A stretch of 64,000 nucleotides of DNA from Ruegeria atlantica. Lineage in GTDB: Bacteria; Pseudomonadota; Alphaproteobacteria; Rhodobacterales; Rhodobacteraceae. The stretch lies in NCBI RefSeq assembly GCF_013032455.1, contig NZ_WQCF01000010.1, positions 1 through 64,000 of the forward strand. Direction: 5' to 3'. How positions within the stretch are numbered: the stretch's first letter is position 1; every line of letters begins with the position of its first letter. Positions 21,104-32,174 of this stretch are shown here, piece by piece. The position numbers and the translations under genes were made by a program. The notes beneath the pieces are model-generated. The model saw only the letters and a list, made by a program, of their open reading frames with translations, had not been told where the DNA came from and ran no database searches.

Positions 21104-24100
21104 ATGTCTCAGGATATAAGAGACTGGCTGAGCGTACTCGGACTATCTGACTACGCGCAAGCCTTTTTGGATAACAAAATTGATTTCGCTATTTTGCCCG
21201 ATCTGACGGGCGAAGACCTGATCGAAATCGGAGTAACCGCTGTAGGCGACCGCCGCAGGCTGCTGCGCGCGATTGCCGAGCTTGAAACTGTCGAAGCTGT
21301 TCAACCCTATGAGCCCGAAACCCCTTTGGAACCTGCCAAACGGCAGGTCACGGTCATGTTCGCCGACCTCACCGGTTTTACGAAACTGACCAGTGAACTG
21401 GATGCCGAGGACATGCACGCGTTGTTGAACGCGTTTTTCGCCAAGGTCGACCATGTGGTCGAAAAGTTCGGTGGCCGCATCGACAAACATATCGGTGACG
21501 CCGTGATGGCGGTGTTCGGCGCGCCGATCTCTCATACCAATGACACCGAACGGGCGGCGCGGGCGGCGCTGGAAATCCACTCGGTGCTGCCCGGCCTGAA
21601 CCCGCCGGTATCCTGCCATATCGGCATTGCCTCGGGGCAGGTGATTGCCAGCACGACGGGCAGCCAGGCGCACACGGAGTACACGGTGACCGGCGATGGC
21701 GTGAACCTGGCGTCGCGCATCACCGACATGGCGGTGCCTGGTGAAACTCTGGTGTCACACGACATTCAGCGTGCGTTAGGGCCGCTATTTGTTGGTGAGT
21801 CCATGGGTGAAAAGGCGATCAAGGGACTGACCGAACCCGTCGAGCTATGGCGGCTGGACCGCATGGCCCGCAACATCCGGTCTCGGCGGCACCGCTTTGT
21901 CGGGCGCGAACGGGAAATGTCGCTGTTCTCGGCCACGTTCGACAGGTGCCAGCAACATGGCAAGGGTGAAGTTCACATCATTCTGGGTGAGCCGGGGATC
22001 GGTAAGACGCACCTGTCCGAGCAGGTGGCCGAAATGGCTGCTGGGTTAGGTTACTCGATCCACAACGGCGTGGTCATGGATTTCGGTACGCGCGAGGGGC
22101 ATTCGGCCATTCAATCCGTTGCCCGCAGCATTCTGGGGCTCGAGCCGATGGCTGATGCGGCCACCTGCGCCGAAATGGCGAAACAGGCGGTTGGAAAGGG
22201 CTGGGTCTCGCCCTCGAATGCGGCCCATCTGAACGCGCTGCTTGAGCTTGAACAGGACCCGGGTCTGGCCGAAGTATACGCGGTTATGGATAACGCAACG
22301 CGTTTGCGTGGACGACGTCAGGTGATTGACGAACTGATCGAGGCGCGCAGTCGCGAAGCGCCGATGCTAATCCAGATTGAAGATATTCACTGGGCGGCGC
22401 CCGAAATCCTGACCGCCTGCGCTCATATCGCCGCAACTACGCGCGATCTGCCTTGTGTGCTGCTGATGACCAGCCGGGTCGAAGGCGACCCGATCGACCG
22501 CGAATGGCAGATGAGCACCGATGGGGCGCTGATCTCAAAACTGGAGCTGGCTCCGATGGGCGACGAACAGGCCCGCAAGCTGGTCGAGGAGTTCACCGGC
22601 ATTGATCCAGAGTTACTGGATGCCTGTGTGAAGCGCGCCGGAGGTAATCCGCTGTTCCTGGAACAGCTTCTGCGCAATATCGACGTGCTGAAACGGGAAT
22701 CCGTTCCGGGCAGCATTCAAGGCATTGTGCAGTCGCGGCTGGACGCGCTGGACCGACCAAGCCGGTCGGCGATTCAGGCGGCATCTGTATTGGGGCAGAG
22801 GTTTTCACCCGATGTGTTGAACTTTTTACTGGGTGAGGGGCATCTGGATGTCTCGACCTTGATTCGAACGGCCCTGATCCGCGAGGCCGGTAGCGATCTG
22901 ATGTTTGCTCACGCGCTGATCCGCGACGGGTCTTACGCAACGCTGGTGAAATCGGAACGTGCGCGGTTACACCGGCAGGCTGCGAAATGGTTTGAAGATC
23001 GCGACGCAACTCTGCGGGCACAACACCTTGATCGGGCCGGTGCCACCAATGCTGCGCAAGCCTATCTGGAAGCGGCCGAGAAACTGATCCAGGCTTTTCA
23101 GTTTGATGAGGCCAGCCCCCTGATCGAGCGGGCACTGGAATTGCCTGCTCCCTCTGGTGTGCGGTTTGGTTTGCTGTGTGCCCGTGGCGAAACCCATCGG
23201 TTGCAGGGTTTGTCAGATGACGCGCTCCGCGAGTTTAAGGAGGCTGCCGAGCTTGCCGATACAGATGAACAGATCAGCCGGGCGCATATCGGATTGGCGC
23301 AAGCCGCACGGCAGGCAAGTCTGTACAGCGAGGCGCTGGAAAGCCTTGATCAGGCTGAGGTCGCAGCAGAACGCAGCGGGTCAGAGCGTGACGTTGCACA
23401 GATCAATTACGTGCGGGGTAACATCTATTTCCCGCTGGGTCGGGTCGAAGATGCGCTGCGCAGCAACGAAAAGGCTCTGACACTGGCGCGCAAACTTGAA
23501 TCGGCGCGGCTGGAGGTCGGGGCGCTGAGCGGGTTTGGCGATGCCAATTTCATGAACGCGACGATGCGCACGGCGGCCAAGTTCTACACACAGGCCGTGG
23601 AACGTGCCCGAGAAAAGGGTCTGGTCCGTGATCTGGCTGCGAACCTCCATAACCTCAGCGTAGCGCGCAGCTACACCGGCGATGTGGCGCAGGGGAAGCG
23701 GGACGCGGAGGAAGCCATCGAGGTTTCACAGAAATACTTCGCCTTTGTGCCGGAATGCGTGGCCCAGACTTGTCTGGGCGTGGCGCATACGTTTCTGGGG
23801 GAACTGGATCAGGCGCTGGAAACCTTTGCCATTTCCGCGGACATCGCCAACCGTGTGGGCGCCAAGCGACTTGAGGCGCAGGCTCTTGAGCATCTGGCCC
23901 GTACGCAGGTCTATGCCGGGCAACTGGATCAGGCCCGAAAAACTGGACGACACGCGGTTGAAATCGCACTGGAACATGGTCGGAATTTTGTGGGACCCAA
24001 AGCCTTGTCTGCATTGGCAATGGCCGAAACAGACCCGGACGTTCAGGACCGTCACCTGAAGCTGGGAATGCAGATCATTTCCGAAGGCTGCGTGGGCCAT

Positions 24101-24367
24101 AGCCATCTGCATTTCTACCCCGATGCCATTGCCGTCATGTTAGGGCGGCAGGAATGGGACAGGGCCTCCGAATATGCAGAAGCTTTGGCCAAATTCACCG
24201 CGGATGAACCCCTGCTGATGGTCGATCTGTCCATTCAGCAGGCGCGGGTGCTGGCCGAATGTGGCGGCTGGGGCATACCCGTGATCGCGCATGAAGGGTT
24301 CGAGCAACTTGGCGCCCGGTTCCGCAAGATGGGAATCACGCAGACGTTGGTCGGGCGACTGGACTAG
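21104..24367 (+). CDS. SAM-domain class III adenylate cyclase with AAA/NACHT-like ATPase and TPR array
   Basis: The 1087-aa protein is soluble. Residues 1-62 form a SAM domain (WLSVLGLSDYAQAFLDNKID). Residues 80-250 are a class III cyclase catalytic domain with both metal aspartates (Asp88 in FADLTGFT, Asp132 in GDAVMAVFG). It also has the adenine-selecting Lys128 and Asp198 and the transition-state Asn201/Arg205 in VNLASR. Residues 265-600 are a signalling ATPase (GREREM, P-loop GEPGIGKT at 295-302, IQIEDIHWA). The C-terminal third is helical TPR-type repeat. All catalytic residues are present, so cyclic AMP synthesis is predicted, gated by the ATPase-TPR sensor. The channel-like gene follows 16 bases later. 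Confidence 0.9.
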   Translation: MSQDIRDWLSVLGLSDYAQAFLDNKIDFAILPDLTGEDLIEIGVTAVGDRRRLLRAIAELETVEAVQPYEPETPLEPAKRQVTVMFADLTGFTKLTSELDAEDMHALLNAFFAKVDHVVEKFGGRIDKHIGDAVMAVFGAPISHTNDTERAARAALEIHSVLPGLNPPVSCHIGIASGQVIASTTGSQAHTEYTVTGDGVNLASRITDMAVPGETLVSHDIQRALGPLFVGESMGEKAIKGLTEPVELWRLDRMARNIRSRRHRFVGREREMSLFSATFDRCQQHGKGEVHIILGEPGIGKTHLSEQVAEMAAGLGYSIHNGVVMDFGTREGHSAIQSVARSILGLEPMADAATCAEMAKQAVGKGWVSPSNAAHLNALLELEQDPGLAEVYAVMDNATRLRGRRQVIDELIEARSREAPMLIQIEDIHWAAPEILTACAHIAATTRDLPCVLLMTSRVEGDPIDREWQMSTDGALISKLELAPMGDEQARKLVEEFTGIDPELLDACVKRAGGNPLFLEQLLRNIDVLKRESVPGSIQGIVQSRLDALDRPSRSAIQAASVLGQRFSPDVLNFLLGEGHLDVSTLIRTALIREAGSDLMFAHALIRDGSYATLVKSERARLHRQAAKWFEDRDATLRAQHLDRAGATNAAQAYLEAAEKLIQAFQFDEASPLIERALELPAPSGVRFGLLCARGETHRLQGLSDDALREFKEAAELADTDEQISRAHIGLAQAARQASLYSEALESLDQAEVAAERSGSERDVAQINYVRGNIYFPLGRVEDALRSNEKALTLARKLESARLEVGALSGFGDANFMNATMRTAAKFYTQAVERAREKGLVRDLAANLHNLSVARSYTGDVAQGKRDAEEAIEVSQKYFAFVPECVAQTCLGVAHTFLGELDQALETFAISADIANRVGAKRLEAQALEHLARTQVYAGQLDQARKTGRHAVEIALEHGRNFVGPKALSALAMAETDPDVQDRHLKLGMQIISEGCVGHSHLHFYPDAIAVMLGRQEWDRASEYAEALAKFTADEPLLMVDLSIQQARVLAECGGWGIPVIAHEGFEQLGARFRKMGITQTLVGRLD

Positions 24368-24383: not shown

Positions 24384-25547
24384 ATGAGCATCGAAAAGAA
24401 GGTCTGGTGGATTTCGGGTGTCGTGACGCTGATCCTCGCCGTGCTGTTGTTCAATCTGTGGGTGGCGTTGAACCATTTCGAAGAGGATCCGACGCAACTG
24501 CCTGATCAGGCTGCGGTCGATGACTATCTGGCAAAGCTGGGCAATGTGCCTGAATATCAGGTGAAAACCGGTATTTTCATTAAATCCTTCAGCTTTACCG
24601 GCGCAAGCGACGTGTATGTCACCGGCTATGTCTGGCAGCATTACGAGGACGGCGCGCATGACGCGATCAAACCGGTCGACGGTGAGGTTGGGTTCATCCT
24701 GCCCGAAGCCGTGGACGCGGCGAACGGCGTGATCGAAGAGGCCTATCGCATAGATCAGGGTGGCTCGGAACTTATCGGCTGGTATTTCGAGCAAACCTTG
24801 CGCCAAAGCTTTGATTACACCAGTTATCCCTTTGACCACAAAACCGTCTGGGTCCGGTTCTGGCCCAGAGAATTTGAAGTGGCGGTCGCACTAATTCCCG
24901 ATTTCAAATCCTATCCTGCCACCGGCCCAGATGACATTTTCGGTATCGACAACCGCATCGTCATGGGCACGTGGGAGCGTGAGAACACCTATTTCGATTA
25001 TCGGCTGTCGGATTTGGGTACAACGCTGGGCATCCGCGACGCCGAATTCCAGACCAACCTGCCCGAACTGCATTACAACTTTGTCATCAAGCGCAATTTC
25101 GGAAATGCCTTCATCGTTCACATGATCCCGCTGATCGTGGTGACGATGCTGCTGTTTGGGGCGGTGATGACCGTCACCCGCCGCCCCGATCTGGTCGAAC
25201 GGCATGATTTCAGCACCTCAAGCGTGATCGGCACCTGCTCGGTCCTGTTCTTCGTAATTCTGTTGGCGCATGTGCAGCTACGCGAAGGATTTGCCGGATC
25301 GCCTGTGATCTACATGGAATCGTTCTTTTTCCTGATGTATTTCTTGCTGCTTGCGGTGTCGGTGAACACATACCTGTTCGCCTCTGAGGCGGTGCCGTCG
25401 CTGCGCTTTGTTCACTATAAGGACAATCTGATCCCAAAAGCCGCGTTCTGGCCCTTTGTCCTGCTCTGCATGGTGGCGATCACGGCCTATAACCTAAGCC
25501 TCAAGGCTGATCCCGAAGATGAGACCGTGATCGAGGTGCAGAATTAG
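24384..25547 (+). CDS. Pentameric ligand-gated ion channel-like membrane protein
   Basis: The 387-aa protein starts at the ATG at 24384 with GAGGAG before it. It has an N-terminal membrane anchor (8-29), then an outside domain of about 210 residues with FDYTSYPFDHKTVWVRFWP (143-161). That block resembles the FPFD-type loop of Cys-loop receptors. Residues IKRNFGNAFIVHMIP (235-249) resemble the receptor pre-M1/M1 junction with its proline. Four membrane segments follow at about 241-263, 277-298, 307-332 and 352-373, the M1-M4 pattern. The extra N-terminal anchor in place of a cleaved signal is unusual. No database search was possible; a different four-helix sensor family is the main alternative. 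It is cotranscribed with the cyclase, so the two may form a sensing pair. Confidence 0.6.
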   Translation: MSIEKKVWWISGVVTLILAVLLFNLWVALNHFEEDPTQLPDQAAVDDYLAKLGNVPEYQVKTGIFIKSFSFTGASDVYVTGYVWQHYEDGAHDAIKPVDGEVGFILPEAVDAANGVIEEAYRIDQGGSELIGWYFEQTLRQSFDYTSYPFDHKTVWVRFWPREFEVAVALIPDFKSYPATGPDDIFGIDNRIVMGTWERENTYFDYRLSDLGTTLGIRDAEFQTNLPELHYNFVIKRNFGNAFIVHMIPLIVVTMLLFGAVMTVTRRPDLVERHDFSTSSVIGTCSVLFFVILLAHVQLREGFAGSPVIYMESFFFLMYFLLLAVSVNTYLFASEAVPSLRFVHYKDNLIPKAAFWPFVLLCMVAITAYNLSLKADPEDETVIEVQN

Positions 25548-28500
25548 GTGGGCGGCTGAAACCCCGGCTTTGGTGTGCCTGTAGCCATGTCCAACGTGTA
25601 TTCCGCGACGATTCCGGAGCTACCCTCCTCCCACTGATCCAGATATTTGGTGGGATGCGCGATCACGTAAGTGTAGGCTGGCTTCTTCACGCCGTCGATC
25701 AGCACGTTGATCCGCTTGCGGACATATACATTCTCGGGCGAGTTGGGACCGTGATAGCCTTCGAGCTTGTCCAGTTCCTTCATTCCCGTGGATGAGACAC
25801 GATAGACCTCACCCCGAACCGGTGTGCCGCGACCCTTTTGGTCGACCAATGTGGCCATCCGGTGCAGGAATCCGCAATTGGGGTTGTCGCAATGGGGCTC
25901 GTGCGGAACGATCAGGGGCATCGGTTGGCGGGTTGTAGCCTCGCCCACAAAATCATCCAGCACTTCGGCATGGGCGTTGTGATTGGGGAAACCCCGCTTT
26001 AGCGAACCATAGGTAAAGTAAAGATAGGTTTTCTCACGATCCTCGATCAGGTCATCTTCGTCTTCTTCCTCGATCTCGGTCAGGGTATGGGTGTTCGCCC
26101 AATCCTCAAGCATCGCCCGAATTTCTTCCGAGACCTTGGCGTCTCTGGCGCTTTGCAGGAAGTGGATGCAGGAACTGGCGTCGATATCCTTGGCGCCCAG
26201 CAGGATGTTCACCATCTCGGCCGAATTGTTCATCACCGCCACATGCAGGCTGGTAAAGCCGTGATCGTTGGTGGCGTTGACATTAATACCCCGGTCGATC
26301 AGTGCTTGCGCGGCCTCAAGATCGGGCTTGCCTAGGTCCTGACCGTTTTCATGCAGCTCTCCTTCGCCGCCCGCCGCGTAATGCAGCAGCGTGTCGCCAT
26401 TGCTGTCATCCACGATGTCGATCCCAGCCATGCCATTATCGATGGCCTGGAACACGCGGCTCCATTGGGCGAACTCGTCCGAGGCAGCGGCTTCCTGCGC
26501 CCATTTGCAGATATTATGTTCCTGATCGGCCAGTTCTTCAAAGGCTTCGTCCAGAACCTCCATGATTTGATCCGGGGTGGCCATCATACCGATCCCCATC
26601 ATGCCGTTGGACAACCGCCCCTTGCGGGGGCCAACCAGATCAATGCCAAGATCGCGCAGTTTCTCGACATTGTTCTGGGTGGTGACGTTGTTCCACATAT
26701 TCGTGTTGCACGCGGGGCAGAGGATCACCGGCTTGTTCCGGTATTGCCACGCCACAAAGACCGAGGTTAGCAGGTTGTCGGCGATCCCATTGGCGATCTT
26801 GCCCATCGTGTTGCAGGTCACCGGGGCAACGATCACGCAGTCGGCCCAATCGCACAGCGCAAGGTGTGAGGCGCGCAGGGGCATGCCGAATTCGATATAC
26901 CGGAAGTTCCATTCATCATCGTCCCGGTAATAGTCATTGTGCGAGATGCATTTCTCGATACGTTCAGCGCCGAAATCGCGAAAGAACTTTTCGGCTGAGA
27001 CTGATGGGATCAGTTTCACGTTGTGCCCAGCTGCTGTGATGCGTTCGACCAGTTCCGGCACTTTATCGGCGGCTGAAGACCCACAGGCACACAGCAATAC
27101 GTTGCGCTTTTCGGTCGGGGCATCAGTCAGTCCACCCTTGGGATAGCCAAAGATGTTCTTGTCCAAGCTCGGGGATTCATGACGCAGCAAAACGGGAAGC
27201 CCGGCCTCGTGCACACGGTCCTGCAGACGACCTTCAAGGATCATATCGACAATGTCTTTGCGTCGGCCCAGACATTCGCCCTGGAAAAACAAGTAGGGGG
27301 CGGTTTCTTTGCCGGTCAGCACGTTCAGTTGCCGCCGCATCTTCATGACATTGGCACCGTGCCCTTCGATGTCGATCAACTTGACGCTGGTGATGCCGAT
27401 ATTCGCCAGAATACTGCGCAACATGTAGGACCACGGGTCCTCATCCGCGTAAAACAGCACAATCGGGTTGGTCGCGACGATCCGGGCCACGTCGGTGGGG
27501 TCTTCTGGGGGCTCATGCTCCTCGATCACCAGCATGGCGGGGTTCTCCAGATCGCGCAAACCGCGGAAGATATGCCCGCTTGGGGCCTGCCACACCTGCG
27601 AGGTTGCGGGGCTCATGTCCACCACGGTCACCAGATCGGAGTCTTCGTCGTAGGCGATACAGAGGCACCAGAACTCTTCCAGCAAGGCCGTTTCGCGATA
27701 TACATTCTCGGGCGGACGAATGACTTCGAACCCAAGCACGCGGTTAAAGTCGATGTTGATCATCAGGTGGCAGTCATCATCGCTGTTCAGCAAGTGCAAT
27801 TGATCACGAAACCATCGTTCGGGGGTTATCTCCTCGGGGTCAGGTCGCAAGGCGTAACTGTGGAAAGTGCTGCCCAGATGCACATGGGGTGTCTGGCTCA
27901 GATACCGTTGCGCAAGATTGTGCATTTCCTTTGCGGTGGATACGCGGCTGAGAGCGTCGGTGAGATTGGCCTGCGTTGCGATCAGCAGCTTGTCTTCGTC
28001 AACTTGTTCATCCCCAAGGATCGCAAGACTTTCAGCCAGCACTCCCAGCGAGTTCATGTTCGGGCTGGCCCGTCGGAACAGGTTGCGCCGTTTCTTGGGG
28101 TCTTTGGCCAGATACAGGGTGCTGTCCACATAATTGCAGTCCTGTTGCAGCGTTTGCAGGTTGGTCTTGACCGCCTCGCGCGCCGAAAACCGCAGAATGC
28201 CCCGTGACCGCATCGAGGTTCCGTCGCGGTCCGACATCCCAGCCCAAAGGCGATCAATCGTGGTGACCCACAGCTTGCCATATTTCTCGGGGTGTACATC
28301 CATCATATGCACCAAGCCGGTGCTGGGATTACATTTAGCGATGATGGCAAAGTGACCGCCGGGCATGGTTGGATTGCCGTGGGCGACACCAACCTGAAAA
28401 TTCGCCACCAGAATGTCGTTGTCCCCGCCCAGACGGTTGGATTCGTCGATCGCCTCAAGCAGCAATTCGACAGAGGTCGTGGCTTCATCCATGAAGTAAG

Positions 28501-29125
28501 CCTGAACCTGTACCCGATCGCGCAGGCCCTGCGTGTGGATGAAGGTACAGGCGACGTCGTAAAGTTCACCCAGCGAAATGCCGTCATTGACCACGAAAGA
28601 CGTGGGCAGGGCGCATTCGCGGAAGATGTCGTTGACCTCGCAGCTGAACCCCAGCGCCGACATGCTAAGCGCCGCCGCCGTCACGCTGCAGCAGTTGATG
28701 GGTTGCTGAAAGTTCTGAAGATGCACACTGACCAGATCGCCGAACAGGGTGGCGTAGCACCCTTCGCGAATCCTAGTCGGGATTTCGAACCACTGGTTAC
28801 TGGAAAGGTAGGCCAGCTTTGTTCCGGGCGTGGCCAGCGCCTCGAGGCTGACGGGAATGTCGAAAATCTCAAGGTGTTCCTCGTAGAAATAGTCGCCCGT
28901 ATCGGCCGTTGCTAAAACTGTTCCTTCTTGGCGCAACTGAACGACACCGCTGAGGACCACATACATGCCTTTCGATGGCAGAACTGTATCCTCGGCCACC
29001 TCGAAACACTCGAAATGTGGCTGGATATTCGAAGGATCATCTGCTGGTAGGATCTCGTGTATCAGCGCCCAGTCAGCCTTGGTGGGATCATAGGAAATGG
29101 TGTTTTCAATTGGATCTTTAGGCAC
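25544..29125 (-). CDS. Giant fusion: phytochelatin synthase-like, glutaredoxin-like, HFCD flavoprotein, ankyrin, gamma-glutamylcyclotransferase
   Basis: The GTG at 29125, after AGGGGGAAA, gives 1193 aa; the frame is open to a TTG at 29200. Parts in order: cyclic-nucleotide-binding-like fold without the usual Arg (about 20-125). Papain-like phytochelatin synthase domain with Cys145/146, His258 and Asp276 (about 140-315). A degenerate repeat of that fold without the His (about 430-540). A glutaredoxin fold with DPWS where CPYC is usual (553-640). An HFCD flavoprotein decarboxylase with His754 and PACNTNMW (804-811) but no PPC-decarboxylase clamp cysteine (673-860). Two ankyrin repeats (about 905-985). 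A gamma-glutamylcyclotransferase with YGSL (1039-1042) and Glu1122 (1033-1157). No signal peptide, so cytoplasmic. Its stop overlaps the channel-like gene by 4 bases, tail to tail. A role in gamma-glutamyl or glutathione thiol metabolism is inferred, not shown. Confidence 0.85.
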   Translation of the reverse strand: MPKDPIENTISYDPTKADWALIHEILPADDPSNIQPHFECFEVAEDTVLPSKGMYVVLSGVVQLRQEGTVLATADTGDYFYEEHLEIFDIPVSLEALATPGTKLAYLSSNQWFEIPTRIREGCYATLFGDLVSVHLQNFQQPINCCSVTAAALSMSALGFSCEVNDIFRECALPTSFVVNDGISLGELYDVACTFIHTQGLRDRVQVQAYFMDEATTSVELLLEAIDESNRLGGDNDILVANFQVGVAHGNPTMPGGHFAIIAKCNPSTGLVHMMDVHPEKYGKLWVTTIDRLWAGMSDRDGTSMRSRGILRFSAREAVKTNLQTLQQDCNYVDSTLYLAKDPKKRRNLFRRASPNMNSLGVLAESLAILGDEQVDEDKLLIATQANLTDALSRVSTAKEMHNLAQRYLSQTPHVHLGSTFHSYALRPDPEEITPERWFRDQLHLLNSDDDCHLMINIDFNRVLGFEVIRPPENVYRETALLEEFWCLCIAYDEDSDLVTVVDMSPATSQVWQAPSGHIFRGLRDLENPAMLVIEEHEPPEDPTDVARIVATNPIVLFYADEDPWSYMLRSILANIGITSVKLIDIEGHGANVMKMRRQLNVLTGKETAPYLFFQGECLGRRKDIVDMILEGRLQDRVHEAGLPVLLRHESPSLDKNIFGYPKGGLTDAPTEKRNVLLCACGSSAADKVPELVERITAAGHNVKLIPSVSAEKFFRDFGAERIEKCISHNDYYRDDDEWNFRYIEFGMPLRASHLALCDWADCVIVAPVTCNTMGKIANGIADNLLTSVFVAWQYRNKPVILCPACNTNMWNNVTTQNNVEKLRDLGIDLVGPRKGRLSNGMMGIGMMATPDQIMEVLDEAFEELADQEHNICKWAQEAAASDEFAQWSRVFQAIDNGMAGIDIVDDSNGDTLLHYAAGGEGELHENGQDLGKPDLEAAQALIDRGINVNATNDHGFTSLHVAVMNNSAEMVNILLGAKDIDASSCIHFLQSARDAKVSEEIRAMLEDWANTHTLTEIEEEDEDDLIEDREKTYLYFTYGSLKRGFPNHNAHAEVLDDFVGEATTRQPMPLIVPHEPHCDNPNCGFLHRMATLVDQKGRGTPVRGEVYRVSSTGMKELDKLEGYHGPNSPENVYVRKRINVLIDGVKKPAYTYVIAHPTKYLDQWEEGSSGIVAEYTLDMATGTPKPGFQPPT

Positions 29126-29200
29126 GTCTGTTTCCCCCTGAACTTCAACGTTAATTTGGTCAAAGAACCAACGCTGAAATGTGTTGCAGGCGTCAGGCAA

Positions 29201-29552: not shown

Positions 29553-30659
29553 TTGAGCTGGAACATTTGTGTCATAGGCGCAGGCAAGATCGGTCAGATG
29601 ATCGCCAGCCTGCTACAAGGATCGTCGAACTATTCGGTTACAGTGGCTGATCGCGATCTGGCGGCGTTGTCTGTGCTGAACAAGCAGGGGATCGCGACCC
29701 GGCAGATTGATGTGGGGGATGAGGCGCAGCTGACCCAGGGACTGGTTGGATTCGATGCTGTGATCTCGGCGGCTCCGTTCTTTCTGACACCGAAGATTGC
29801 CAAAGCCGCCAAGACGGCGGGCGCGCATTACTTTGACCTGACCGAAGATGTTGCGGCCACCAATGCCGTGCGTGAATTGGCCAAGGACAGTGATACTGCC
29901 TATATGCCGCAATGTGGTCTGGCACCGGGGTTCGTTGGCATTGCGGGTGCATCGCTGGCGGCTGAATTCGACGAATTGGACAGTCTGCATATGCGGGTAG
30001 GGGCATTGCCGCTCTACCCCACCAATGCGTTGAAATACAACCTGACTTGGTCCACGGACGGGCTGATCAATGAGTACTGCAACCCGTGCGATGCCATCGT
30101 GAACGGTGAGCGTGTGAAAACCGCGGCGTTGGAAGACTATGAGGTGCTGGGCCACGATGGCGTGGAGTACGAATGCTTCAACACGTCCGGCGGGCTGGGC
30201 ACTTTGCCGGAAACGCTTGAGGGCAAGGCGCGGGCGGTGTCCTATCGCTCGATCCGCTATCCGGGCCATTGCGATATCCTGAAGCTGCTGCTCAAGGATC
30301 TGGGGCTGGAACGTCGTCGTGACCTGCTGAAGGACATCTTCGAAACGGCGCTGCCGCGTACTGATCAGGATGTTGTGCTGGTTTATTGTACCGCAAAGGG
30401 CATGATCGACGGTGCGCTGCGTGAGAAATCGCTGATCAATAAAAGCTTTGCGCGCACCATCAACGGACAGGTCTGGAGCGCCATTCAGGTCACCACCGCC
30501 GCGGGTGTTCTGGGTGTGGTCGATCTGATGCGCACCGGCGCGCTGCCCGCAAAAGGGTTCGTGCGGCAAGAACAGGTGAACCTGTCCGATTTCCTGAACA
30601 CCGAATTTGGCCGGCTTTATCGCGCCGGTGACGTAACCGAACAGAACAAGGCGGCCTGA
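29553..30659 (+). CDS. Lysine 6-dehydrogenase (saccharopine dehydrogenase-like)
   Basis: The 368-aa protein has an N-terminal Rossmann domain ([17 protein letters not shown]) and the saccharopine dehydrogenase C-terminal fold with [10 protein letters not shown] and [13 protein letters not shown]. The TTG start follows GAGGAGG by about 7 bases. Such proteins in Roseobacters oxidise the epsilon-amino group of L-lysine to 2-aminoadipate 6-semialdehyde using NAD. The aldehyde dehydrogenase 3 bases downstream is the matching next step, which supports a lysine-degrading role over true saccharopine cleavage. Confidence 0.8.
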
Positions 30660-30662
30660 ATT

Positions 30663-32174
30663 ATGAAAGACATCGTTATGACAGCACAAACCACCCTCGC
30701 AAATCTGGACCTGACCGAGGCCGAATTGACGGGGGGAAGCCTGAAAGTGACCTCGCCCATCGACGGTTCTGTGTTGGCCGAAGTTCATGAGACGTCCGCC
30801 GCCGAGATGGAGACTGTCTTTGCCAACGCGAAAGCCGCGTTCAAGGCATGGCGCACCGTTCCCGCCCCGCGTCGGGGTGAGTTGATCCGCCTGCTGGGCG
30901 AAGAACTGCGCGCTGCCAAGGACGATCTGGGTGCGCTGGTCAGCTGGGAGGCAGGTAAGATCACGTCGGAAGGTTTGGGCGAAGTGCAGGAGATGATCGA
31001 CATCTGCGACTTTGCCGTAGGCCTGTCGCGGCAGCTTTATGGCCTGACAATCGCCTCCGAACGTCCCGGCCACCGGATGATGGAGACCTGGCATCCAGCA
31101 GGTCCGGTCGGTGTGATCTCGGCCTTCAATTTCCCCGTCGCCGTCTGGTCGTGGAATGCGGCGCTGGCATTGGTCTGCGGCGATCCGGTGATCTGGAAAC
31201 CATCCGAAAAAACCCCACTGACCGCGATGGCCTGCCAAAAGATCTTCGAACGCGCGCTGGCTCGGTTTGGCGACGCGCCCGATCACCTGTTGCAAACCCT
31301 GATCGGAGGTGCCGCGCTGGGCGAGGCGCTGGTGGCCAGCGAGGATGTGCCGGTGATCTCGGCCACAGGCTCGACACGCATGGGCCGCGCGGTAGCTCCC
31401 ATCGTAGCGCAGCGGTTCGGCAAATGCATTCTGGAACTGGGCGGCAACAACGCGATGATCGTTGGCCCTTCGGCGGATCTGGAAATGGCAGTGCGGGCGA
31501 TTGTGTTCTCGGCTGTGGGCACCGCTGGACAACGCTGCACCACGCTGCGCCGTCTGATCGTGCACAATTCGATCCGCGAAGAATTGGTGAGCCGTCTGAA
31601 AAAGGCCTATGCAGGTCTGCCCATCGGTAATCCACTGGTTGACGGAACATTGGTTGGCCCGCTGGTAGACGAGGCTTCGGGTGCAGCAATGGCCGCTTCG
31701 CTAGAGGCCGCCAAAGTCGAAGGCGGCACCGTGTTTGGTGGTAATCGCGTGACCGAGGGCGTCCCGGCAGGCGTGTATATGGAGCCCGCCATTGTTGAGA
31801 TGCCCGACCAGACTGCGGTGGTGAAAACCGAAACCTTTGCCCCGATCCTTTACGTCATGGGCTATGACGATTTCGACGATGCGCTTGAGCTTCAGAACGA
31901 CGTGCCGCAGGGCCTGTCGTCCTGCGTATTCACCCTGAATATGCGCGAAGCCGAGCAGTTCCTGACCGCAGCCGGATCTGATTGCGGCATCGCCAATGTC
32001 AATATTGGGCCGTCAGGGGCCGAAATCGGTGGCGCGTTTGGTGGTGAAAAGGAAACCGGAGGCGGGCGCGAAAGCGGCTCGGACGCGTGGAAAGCCTATA
32101 TGCGCAGGCAGACCAACACGGTGAACTACTCTGACGAACTGCCGTTGGCCCAAGGCGTGAAGTTCGACATTTGA
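30663..32174 (+). CDS. amaB: 2-aminoadipate 6-semialdehyde dehydrogenase (ALDH7 family)
   Basis: The 503-aa protein is an antiquitin-type aldehyde dehydrogenase. It carries the cofactor motif FNFPVAVWSWN, catalytic Glu in LELGGNN, catalytic Cys in GTAGQRCTT, and the ALDH7 C-terminal signature GGGRESGSDAWKAYMRR. It oxidises aminoadipate semialdehyde, or its cyclic imine form, to 2-aminoadipate. Only 3 bases separate it from the lysine dehydrogenase gene, so the two act in series. A second in-frame ATG at 30678 is a possible start. Confidence 0.92.
   Translation: MKDIVMTAQTTLANLDLTEAELTGGSLKVTSPIDGSVLAEVHETSAAEMETVFANAKAAFKAWRTVPAPRRGELIRLLGEELRAAKDDLGALVSWEAGKITSEGLGEVQEMIDICDFAVGLSRQLYGLTIASERPGHRMMETWHPAGPVGVISAFNFPVAVWSWNAALALVCGDPVIWKPSEKTPLTAMACQKIFERALARFGDAPDHLLQTLIGGAALGEALVASEDVPVISATGSTRMGRAVAPIVAQRFGKCILELGGNNAMIVGPSADLEMAVRAIVFSAVGTAGQRCTTLRRLIVHNSIREELVSRLKKAYAGLPIGNPLVDGTLVGPLVDEASGAAMAASLEAAKVEGGTVFGGNRVTEGVPAGVYMEPAIVEMPDQTAVVKTETFAPILYVMGYDDFDDALELQNDVPQGLSSCVFTLNMREAEQFLTAAGSDCGIANVNIGPSGAEIGGAFGGEKETGGGRESGSDAWKAYMRRQTNTVNYSDELPLAQGVKFDI

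Follow-up and report, generated by a model that had tools for sequence, protein, structure and literature searches.

A 64,000 nucleotide stretch of Ruegeria atlantica DNA (contig NZ_WQCF01000010.1, positions 1 to 64,000; hereafter the window) carries on its minus strand, at 25544-29125, a gene for a seven-domain fusion protein which may represent a single-polypeptide glutathione-processing line, in which glutathione would be deglycylated, the cysteine of the remaining dipeptide decarboxylated and 5-oxoproline released. Judging from conserved residues and structure models we put the probability of this assignment at roughly 45%. The fusion itself was confirmed to be a real gene and not a chance product, as 38 further loci encode the same protein, and the single fusion frame that a sequence-only reading of this DNA had placed at 25544-29125 was thereby borne out. 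The gene is one open frame with a GTG start at 29125, corresponding to 1193 amino acids, and the reading frame continues past this codon to an in-frame TTG at 29200, which would give 1218 amino acids. The sequence GGGGGAAA ends 5 bases ahead of the GTG, and an ATG was seen by eye near the GTG position in several related sequences from other genera. Residues are numbered here as in the longer product, P0001, counted from TTG 29200; subtraction of 25 gives the numbering of the sequence-only reading.

Domain assignment established that the phytochelatin synthase (PCS)-like peptidase, the flavoprotein and the cyclotransferase named in the sequence-only reading are all present, next to a set of ankyrin repeats, and that this reading had missed a weak cyclic nucleoside monophosphate (cNMP)-binding-like N-terminus, a probable second PCS-like copy and a glutaredoxin fold without its cysteines. 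Matches above the Pfam gathering score were obtained for Phytochelatin (residues 165-334, E 1e-9), Flavoprotein (700-882, E 1e-27), GGACT (1061-1187, E 1e-14) and ankyrin (about 925-1008 of P0001), and the cNMP-binding and glutaredoxin matches fell below it. The protein was modelled with AlphaFold2 on an alignment of 21 of the 39 sequences (38 loci and the window), structural matches being sought by Foldseek as well, and each catalytic domain models onto the matching enzyme. The PCS-like cysteine peptidase domain (28178-28876, minus strand, residues 109-341) was matched to the NsPCS-glutathione acyl-enzyme 2bu3 (Z 17.9, root mean square deviation (rmsd) 2.6, 173 residues aligned), and the HFCD flavoprotein domain (26525-27112, minus strand, residues 697-892), which resembles phosphopantothenoylcysteine (PPC) decarboxylases, to the C175S variant of the AtHAL3a PPC decarboxylase with its ene-thiol intermediate (1mvn; Z 22.8, rmsd 2.2, 180 aligned). 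The γ-glutamylamine cyclotransferase (GGACT) domain (25568-26035, minus strand, residues 1056-1211) was matched to 1vkb (Z 17.4, rmsd 2.5, 134 aligned), and the four PDB sequences with E < 0.001 to this domain are all GGACT (A2LD1) entries.

The remaining four parts are all encoded on the same strand. The cNMP-binding-like domain (28781-28978, residues 75-140), assigned by alignment and a Pfam match of E 0.076 that failed the cut-off (13.4 bits as against the 27.5 needed), lacks the arginine usual in such domains. Residues 345-566 (27503-28168) probably constitute a dead second PCS copy: hhalign matched them weakly to the PCS domain (180 columns, E 0.018), by eye their helices and strands follow one another in the model as those of that domain do, and neither Cys nor His is present at the places matching the catalytic residues. 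As only this stretch matched, and weakly, with the shorter stretch 435-566 giving no hhalign match (E 0.62-0.66), the second copy is likely rather than proven. The adjoining glutaredoxin fold (27194-27505, residues 566-669) was recognised by NCBIfam GRX_euk at residues 581-661 (E 5e-7, below the model cut-off) and by its match to PfGrx1 of Plasmodium (7dit; Z 15.2, rmsd 2.4, 103 aligned). It has DPWS in place of the CPxC or CxxS cysteines (D, W and S in 39 of 39 sequences, P in 38) and keeps the cis-Pro of the glutathione site, P635, in all 39. The ankyrin repeats (26084-26527, residues 892-1039; Pfam) were matched to the ORP1 ANK structure 6iyb (Z 15.2, rmsd 2.0, 123 aligned), and the single match of a PADLOC scan lies within them (E 1.3e-5).

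The catalytic triad of plant PCS is described as Cys, His and Asp (PMC7586750), and its counterparts are kept in the fusion as C171 (37/37 sequences), H283 (38/38) and D301 (38/38), counts that omit sequences cut by contig ends (two for C171, one each for H283 and D301). The sequence-only reading had picked the same residues, as its Cys145/146, His258 and Asp276 correspond to C170/C171, H283 and D301. C171 rather than C170 is likely the nucleophile, because C170 is replaced by Ser in two of the 37 sequences and C171 is Cys in every one of them. The fold, the Cys-His-Asp triad and the expected loss of glycine from glutathione are shared with NsPCS (Alr0975) of Nostoc, which is a free-standing enzyme, whereas the 1193 amino acids of the fusion include two copies, one active-looking and the other probably degenerate. 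In the flavoprotein domain the fold, the catalytic His and the PAxNTxMW motif of AtHAL3a/CoaC are retained (H779, N832 and M835, in 39 of 39 sequences); the domain differs in being fused, in having γ-glutamyl-cysteine (γ-Glu-Cys) as its probable substrate, and in that the equivalent of the reducing Cys175 of AtHAL3a is Asn865 in all 39 sequences, the corresponding position being Cys in the CoaBC of the same genome. The HFCD fold, the His and the absence of the reducing Cys are together the features of an oxidative cysteine decarboxylase of the HFCD family. In PPC decarboxylases the His is described as serving oxidative decarboxylation and the Cys reduction (PMC4626798), and since the latter is Asn throughout the fusion family, oxidative decarboxylation to an ene-thiol, with a loss of 46 Da, would be expected. 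A role as a second PPC decarboxylase for coenzyme A synthesis, which the closest solved fold, AtHAL3a, might bring to mind, is hard to credit, as the essential Cys is missing from all 39 sequences and a separate CoaBC that retains this Cys is encoded in the genome.

The flavoprotein could also be compared with the peptidyl-cysteine decarboxylases EpiD, MrsD, TvaF and CypD, which share the HFCD fold and the expected oxidative decarboxylation without reduction, and of which the EpiD-type enzymes likewise lack the reducing Cys. The corresponding explanation, namely tailoring of a ribosomally synthesised and post-translationally modified peptide (RiPP) in which the flavoprotein would decarboxylate the C-terminal Cys of a small precursor peptide in the manner of EpiD or CypD, is very improbable, a CypD-family score (E 0.016, far below cut-off) notwithstanding. 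The fusion is nearer in sequence to PPC decarboxylase, and no precursor peptide was found, as frames of 20-100 amino acids common to at least 3 of 15 loci lie only inside or across neighbouring genes; this search covered 1.2 kb upstream in 15 loci and 0.3 kb downstream in 14, and shorter or less alike frames would escape it. Moreover, we know of no GGACT or PCS domain that acts as a RiPP enzyme.

The cyclotransferase domain retains YGSL and E1147 in all 39 sequences, the latter being the counterpart of the catalytic Glu, E82, of human GGACT (3jud is the E82Q GGACT entry). The fold, a YGxLKRGxPNH-like motif and the catalytic Glu are thus common to the fusion and GGACT (A2LD1), the substrates of which are described as γ-glutamylamines (PMC4919911); the fusion version differs in being part of a larger protein and in carrying an insert with invariant Cys1104, Cys1109 and His1113 (39/39; about 25862-25891), located in or beside a gap of the aligned GGACT entries, which is possibly a metal site.

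The residues, the folds and the type of cyclotransferase make the three-step order put forward in the sequence-only reading the best explanation, and this order is chemically coherent as judged from the enzyme families. The earlier route is thereby partly supported and has become more precise. With its triad, its fold and the precedent of NsPCS, which is described as converting glutathione to γ-Glu-Cys and glycine (PMC12065762), the PCS domain would cut glycine off glutathione. The flavin mononucleotide (FMN) domain would then oxidatively decarboxylate the N-acyl-cysteine γ-Glu-Cys to γ-Glu-NH-CH=CH-SH and FMNH2, and of the two mass losses that the sequence-only reading had allowed, 44 and 46 Da, minus 46 is the likelier given Asn865. 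The ene-thiol would probably be released, the reducing Cys being absent, unless another group reduces it to γ-glutamyl-cysteamine, a compound named as a prodrug in the title of a reference. The GGACT domain would finally cyclise the γ-glutamyl-amine to 5-oxoproline and a free two-carbon aminothiol, either aminoethenethiol, going on to mercaptoacetaldehyde and ammonia, or cysteamine if reduction takes place. A decarboxylated γ-glutamyl substrate fits because the cyclotransferase is nearest to the γ-glutamylamine type. The pseudo-PCS and the Cys-less glutaredoxin may hold glutathione, regulation of the enzyme may fall to the cNMP-like and ankyrin parts, and in Rhodobacteraceae and Aestuariirhabdus a neighbouring channel and cyclase, presented below, may read the product or its loss. 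A gene for glutathione synthetase is present in the same genome (405.7 bits, cut-off 299). In agreement with the sequence-only reading, no paper describing this fusion was found in the literature searched, as judged from titles and the openings of abstracts, most subscription journals lying outside that search. If the assignment is true, a new route of glutathione breakdown, giving a decarboxylated thiol by three reactions chained in one protein, would operate in the Roseobacter group, whose members matter for marine sulfur cycling.

Among the rival explanations the processing of glutathione S-conjugates is the strongest, albeit an unlikely one, with a sensor function, peptide tailoring and coenzyme A synthesis being weaker. 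The PCS domain would in this case take glycine off a conjugate GS-X, GGACT or another enzyme would take the glutamate, and the flavoprotein would cleave the Cys conjugate, the outcome being the addition of a thiol to, or its removal from, a natural product, as has been proposed for TdaB/TdaF in the synthesis of tropodithietic acid. The usual HFCD mechanism needs a free thiol and, to our knowledge, the GGACT type is unsuited to a γ-glutamyl amino acid with its carboxylate, and both points count against S-conjugates, as does the finding that beyond the cyclase and channel no gene cluster tracks the fusion across genera in flanks of up to 8 kb. Consistent with S-conjugates, PCS proteins are described as acting also on S-conjugates of glutathione (PMC3561135), and the tropodithietic acid pathway of related bacteria has the PPC-decarboxylase-like TdaF, its resistance genes including the ChaC-type cyclotransferase TdaR3 (PMC7497051). 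TdaF and TdaR3 parallel the flavoprotein and γ-glutamyl cyclotransferase of the fusion but are encoded by separate genes in another cluster, TdaR3 also being of a different type. Further in favour of S-conjugates, two loci from Rhodospirillaceae metagenome-assembled genomes (MAGs), L024 (7020-7847, by Pfam) and L034 (7016-7849, by cluster), have on the strand of the fusion a gene for a class I S-adenosylmethionine-dependent methyltransferase whose end lies about 50 bases upstream of it, and the product of the enzyme may be methylated. A methionine-synthase-like gene lies upstream of the fusion in L026 and L031.

The distribution of the fusion was determined by scanning a single genome for each species, whereby 46 of 158 candidate stretches were confirmed and resolved to the 38 loci; 36 of these span at least residues 63-1212 and two (L030 and L035) are cut by contig ends. 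This search of other genomes, of a kind that the sequence-only reading had suggested, found all domains joined in the 36 loci holding the whole gene. Identity to the relatives is 48-92%, and there is no variation at 303 query positions among the sequences reaching them (36 or more of the 39). Ruegeria or Silicibacter account for 26 of the 38 loci, many Ruegeria sequences being near-identical, so that locus counts are not independent events; the other 12 derive from Seohaeicola, Roseovarius, two Rhodobacteraceae MAGs, six SAR116, Rhodospirillaceae or alphaproteobacterial records, a Halieaceae MAG and an Aestuariirhabdus MAG. The hosts are alpha- and gammaproteobacteria, mostly marine. A tree of 19 of the 39 sequences gave long-branch warnings and no claim is built on it. 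In the set of 61 genomes of relatives the fusion was found in 19, all within the 37 genomes of the same genus. No fusion was found in a class sample of 384 genomes besides the window's own, which gave one weak PCS-profile match (E 2.8e-9, 62 positions of a 249 amino acid frame), and no certain one in an overlapping phylum sample of 397 other genomes, which gave two weak matches. On viral contigs 16 stretches fitted the search pattern, none encoding a fusion relative, and 60 plasmid records matched, none across more than 80% of the query; the 40 plasmid matches listed all fall in the flavoprotein region, on features annotated CoaBC, coaC or flavoprotein, or on none.

The neighbours recorded in this search, a cyclase and a channel gene, had been overlooked in the sequence-only reading, and these receptor-like and cyclase partners are what is new here, the individual domains of the fusion being of known kinds. 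The channel gene (24384-25547, plus strand, 387 residues) is convergent with the fusion gene, their ends overlapping by 4 bases. Its product gave no match in Pfam and NCBIfam searches. The model (15 sequences, pLDDT 63.9) comprises a beta sandwich followed by four transmembrane helices, the 50 structural matches listed are all pentameric ligand-gated ion channels (best 6fl9, Z 13.8, rmsd 6.5, 275 aligned) and the best Foldseek E value was 4e-12, so that at the level of predicted fold the protein looks to be a previously unrecognised pentameric ligand-gated channel. A search of PDB sequences with the channel profile returned five matches (E 1.4-3.5), which were taken as chance. Upstream lies the gene for a protein with SAM, class III nucleotide cyclase, AAA ATPase and TPR domains (21104-24367, plus strand; Pfam), in which the F-x-D, GD and NLASR motifs are kept in nine of nine aligned sequences. 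Similarity of this protein to the TOMM kinase/cyclase model TIGR03903 was seen as well, at a score far below cut-off (E 5e-43).

The channel occurs in exactly the same 19 of the 61 genomes as the fusion, and full-length cyclase matches at 75-100% identity are found in the same 19, the next best being 41%; the cyclase alone is not diagnostic, with relatives in 55 of the 61 genomes and at least 12 matches in the window's own genome. Of the 39 loci, the window included, 32 have the cyclase near the fusion and 30 the channel, and one further channel, in L011, was overlooked by gene picking and found by genome search. Three gene orders were observed, as most loci are convergent, L022 (Aestuariirhabdus) has fusion, cyclase and channel on one strand, and L036 has the cyclase followed by the fusion. 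In the latter two, no other cyclase match in the genome comes close to the one beside the fusion (709 versus 161 bits in L022, 535 versus 38 bits in L036). Because the genes are kept together through rearrangement, the fusion, cyclase and channel probably work together in Rhodobacteraceae and Aestuariirhabdus.

Several observations weigh against the proposed processing line and its partners. Structural alignments give the PCS domain an identity of no more than 19-23% with NsPCS, and the 'P210 CD lyase' 22oc also matches this part (residues 153-341, about 28178-28744; Z 15.0, rmsd 3.1, 172 aligned, 8% identity); the PCS fold alone therefore cannot settle the reaction. The fusion model is only moderate (pLDDT 72.5, pTM 0.45). 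Under the known mechanism, loss of the reducing Cys closes the simple route to cysteamine. An ene-thiol would moreover be an unstable product, and there is no evident enzyme to take it up. The fusion is dispensable, as 18 of the 37 same-genus genomes lack it. Neither partner is nearby in seven of the 39 loci (six SAR116-type and the Halieaceae locus), although in four of these the contig stops within the fusion or close to it. A genome-wide channel search of 14 of the 38 locus genomes (the 12 non-Ruegeria genomes with L011 and L013) found the channel in four of the 12 and not in the other eight, which come from MAG or single-cell records and are partly incomplete, making these absences uncertain. 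For the cyclase, the SAR116-type or Halieaceae genomes L031, L034 and L037 gave domain-level matches only. The fusion enzyme thus seems to have a role without its partners. Furthermore, two of the seven domains look catalytically dead, which would also suit a sensor of glutathione or thiols, whose dead domains would bind the ligand and whose ankyrins would contact the cyclase or channel, with catalysis playing a minor part. Such a sensor would account for the probable second PCS copy and the glutaredoxin without catalytic residues, for the cNMP-like and ankyrin parts, and for the adjoining cyclase and channel genes with their shared distribution; it is nonetheless improbable, as three catalytic centres are invariant at about 50% overall identity and the same seven loci are without either partner.

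Returning to the glutathione-processing line, an extension of it concerns the partners, in that the glutathione-derived, diffusible two-carbon aminothiol could be a signal, sensed by the adjacent channel much as ELIC senses cysteamine and relayed by the adjacent cyclase. This proposal is doubtful and draws on analogy with ELIC of Erwinia chrysanthemi, which is described as responding to primary amines, with cysteamine the most potent agonist listed (half-maximal effective concentration 0.365 mM; PMC3119659). A putative amino acid decarboxylase gene adjoins the ELIC gene, and GABA is among the likely natural ligands named in the same source (PMC3119659). The fusion beside its channel would repeat this arrangement of an amine-gated channel fold and an adjoining decarboxylase gene, with the difference that the putative channel described here matches no Pfam family. 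Since the reducing Cys is missing, the product may be a compound other than cysteamine itself. If the proposal were true, it would provide a source of natural ligand for a bacterial pentameric receptor, a question dating from the response of ELIC to cysteamine, and bacteria would possess a glutathione-based set of transmitter, receptor and second messenger.

Members of the channel family also occur without the fusion, as 10 non-own genomes of 397 matched the channel profile, and in the six strongest of them no fusion was found, the SAM-cyclase also being absent in the five flanks inspected. Such relatives are present in other Pseudomonadota (L087:9368-10516, L088:9328-10518, L089:9396-11855, L090:23-2488 and L091:8215-10440), some with extra N-terminal parts, and represent a rare unnamed family of pentameric ligand-gated ion channels; the L090 member adjoins a DASS symporter with an N-terminal extension. 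The channel of the Aestuariirhabdus MAG (L022:10695-12866) contains a dCache-like sensor domain, and this MAG has a second, partial channel match at G784:C128:72-1010. In the window, saccharopine-dehydrogenase-like and aldehyde-dehydrogenase genes (29553-32174) adjoin the fusion; human GGACT handles γ-glutamyl-lysine, and the proximity of these genes is probably a coincidence.

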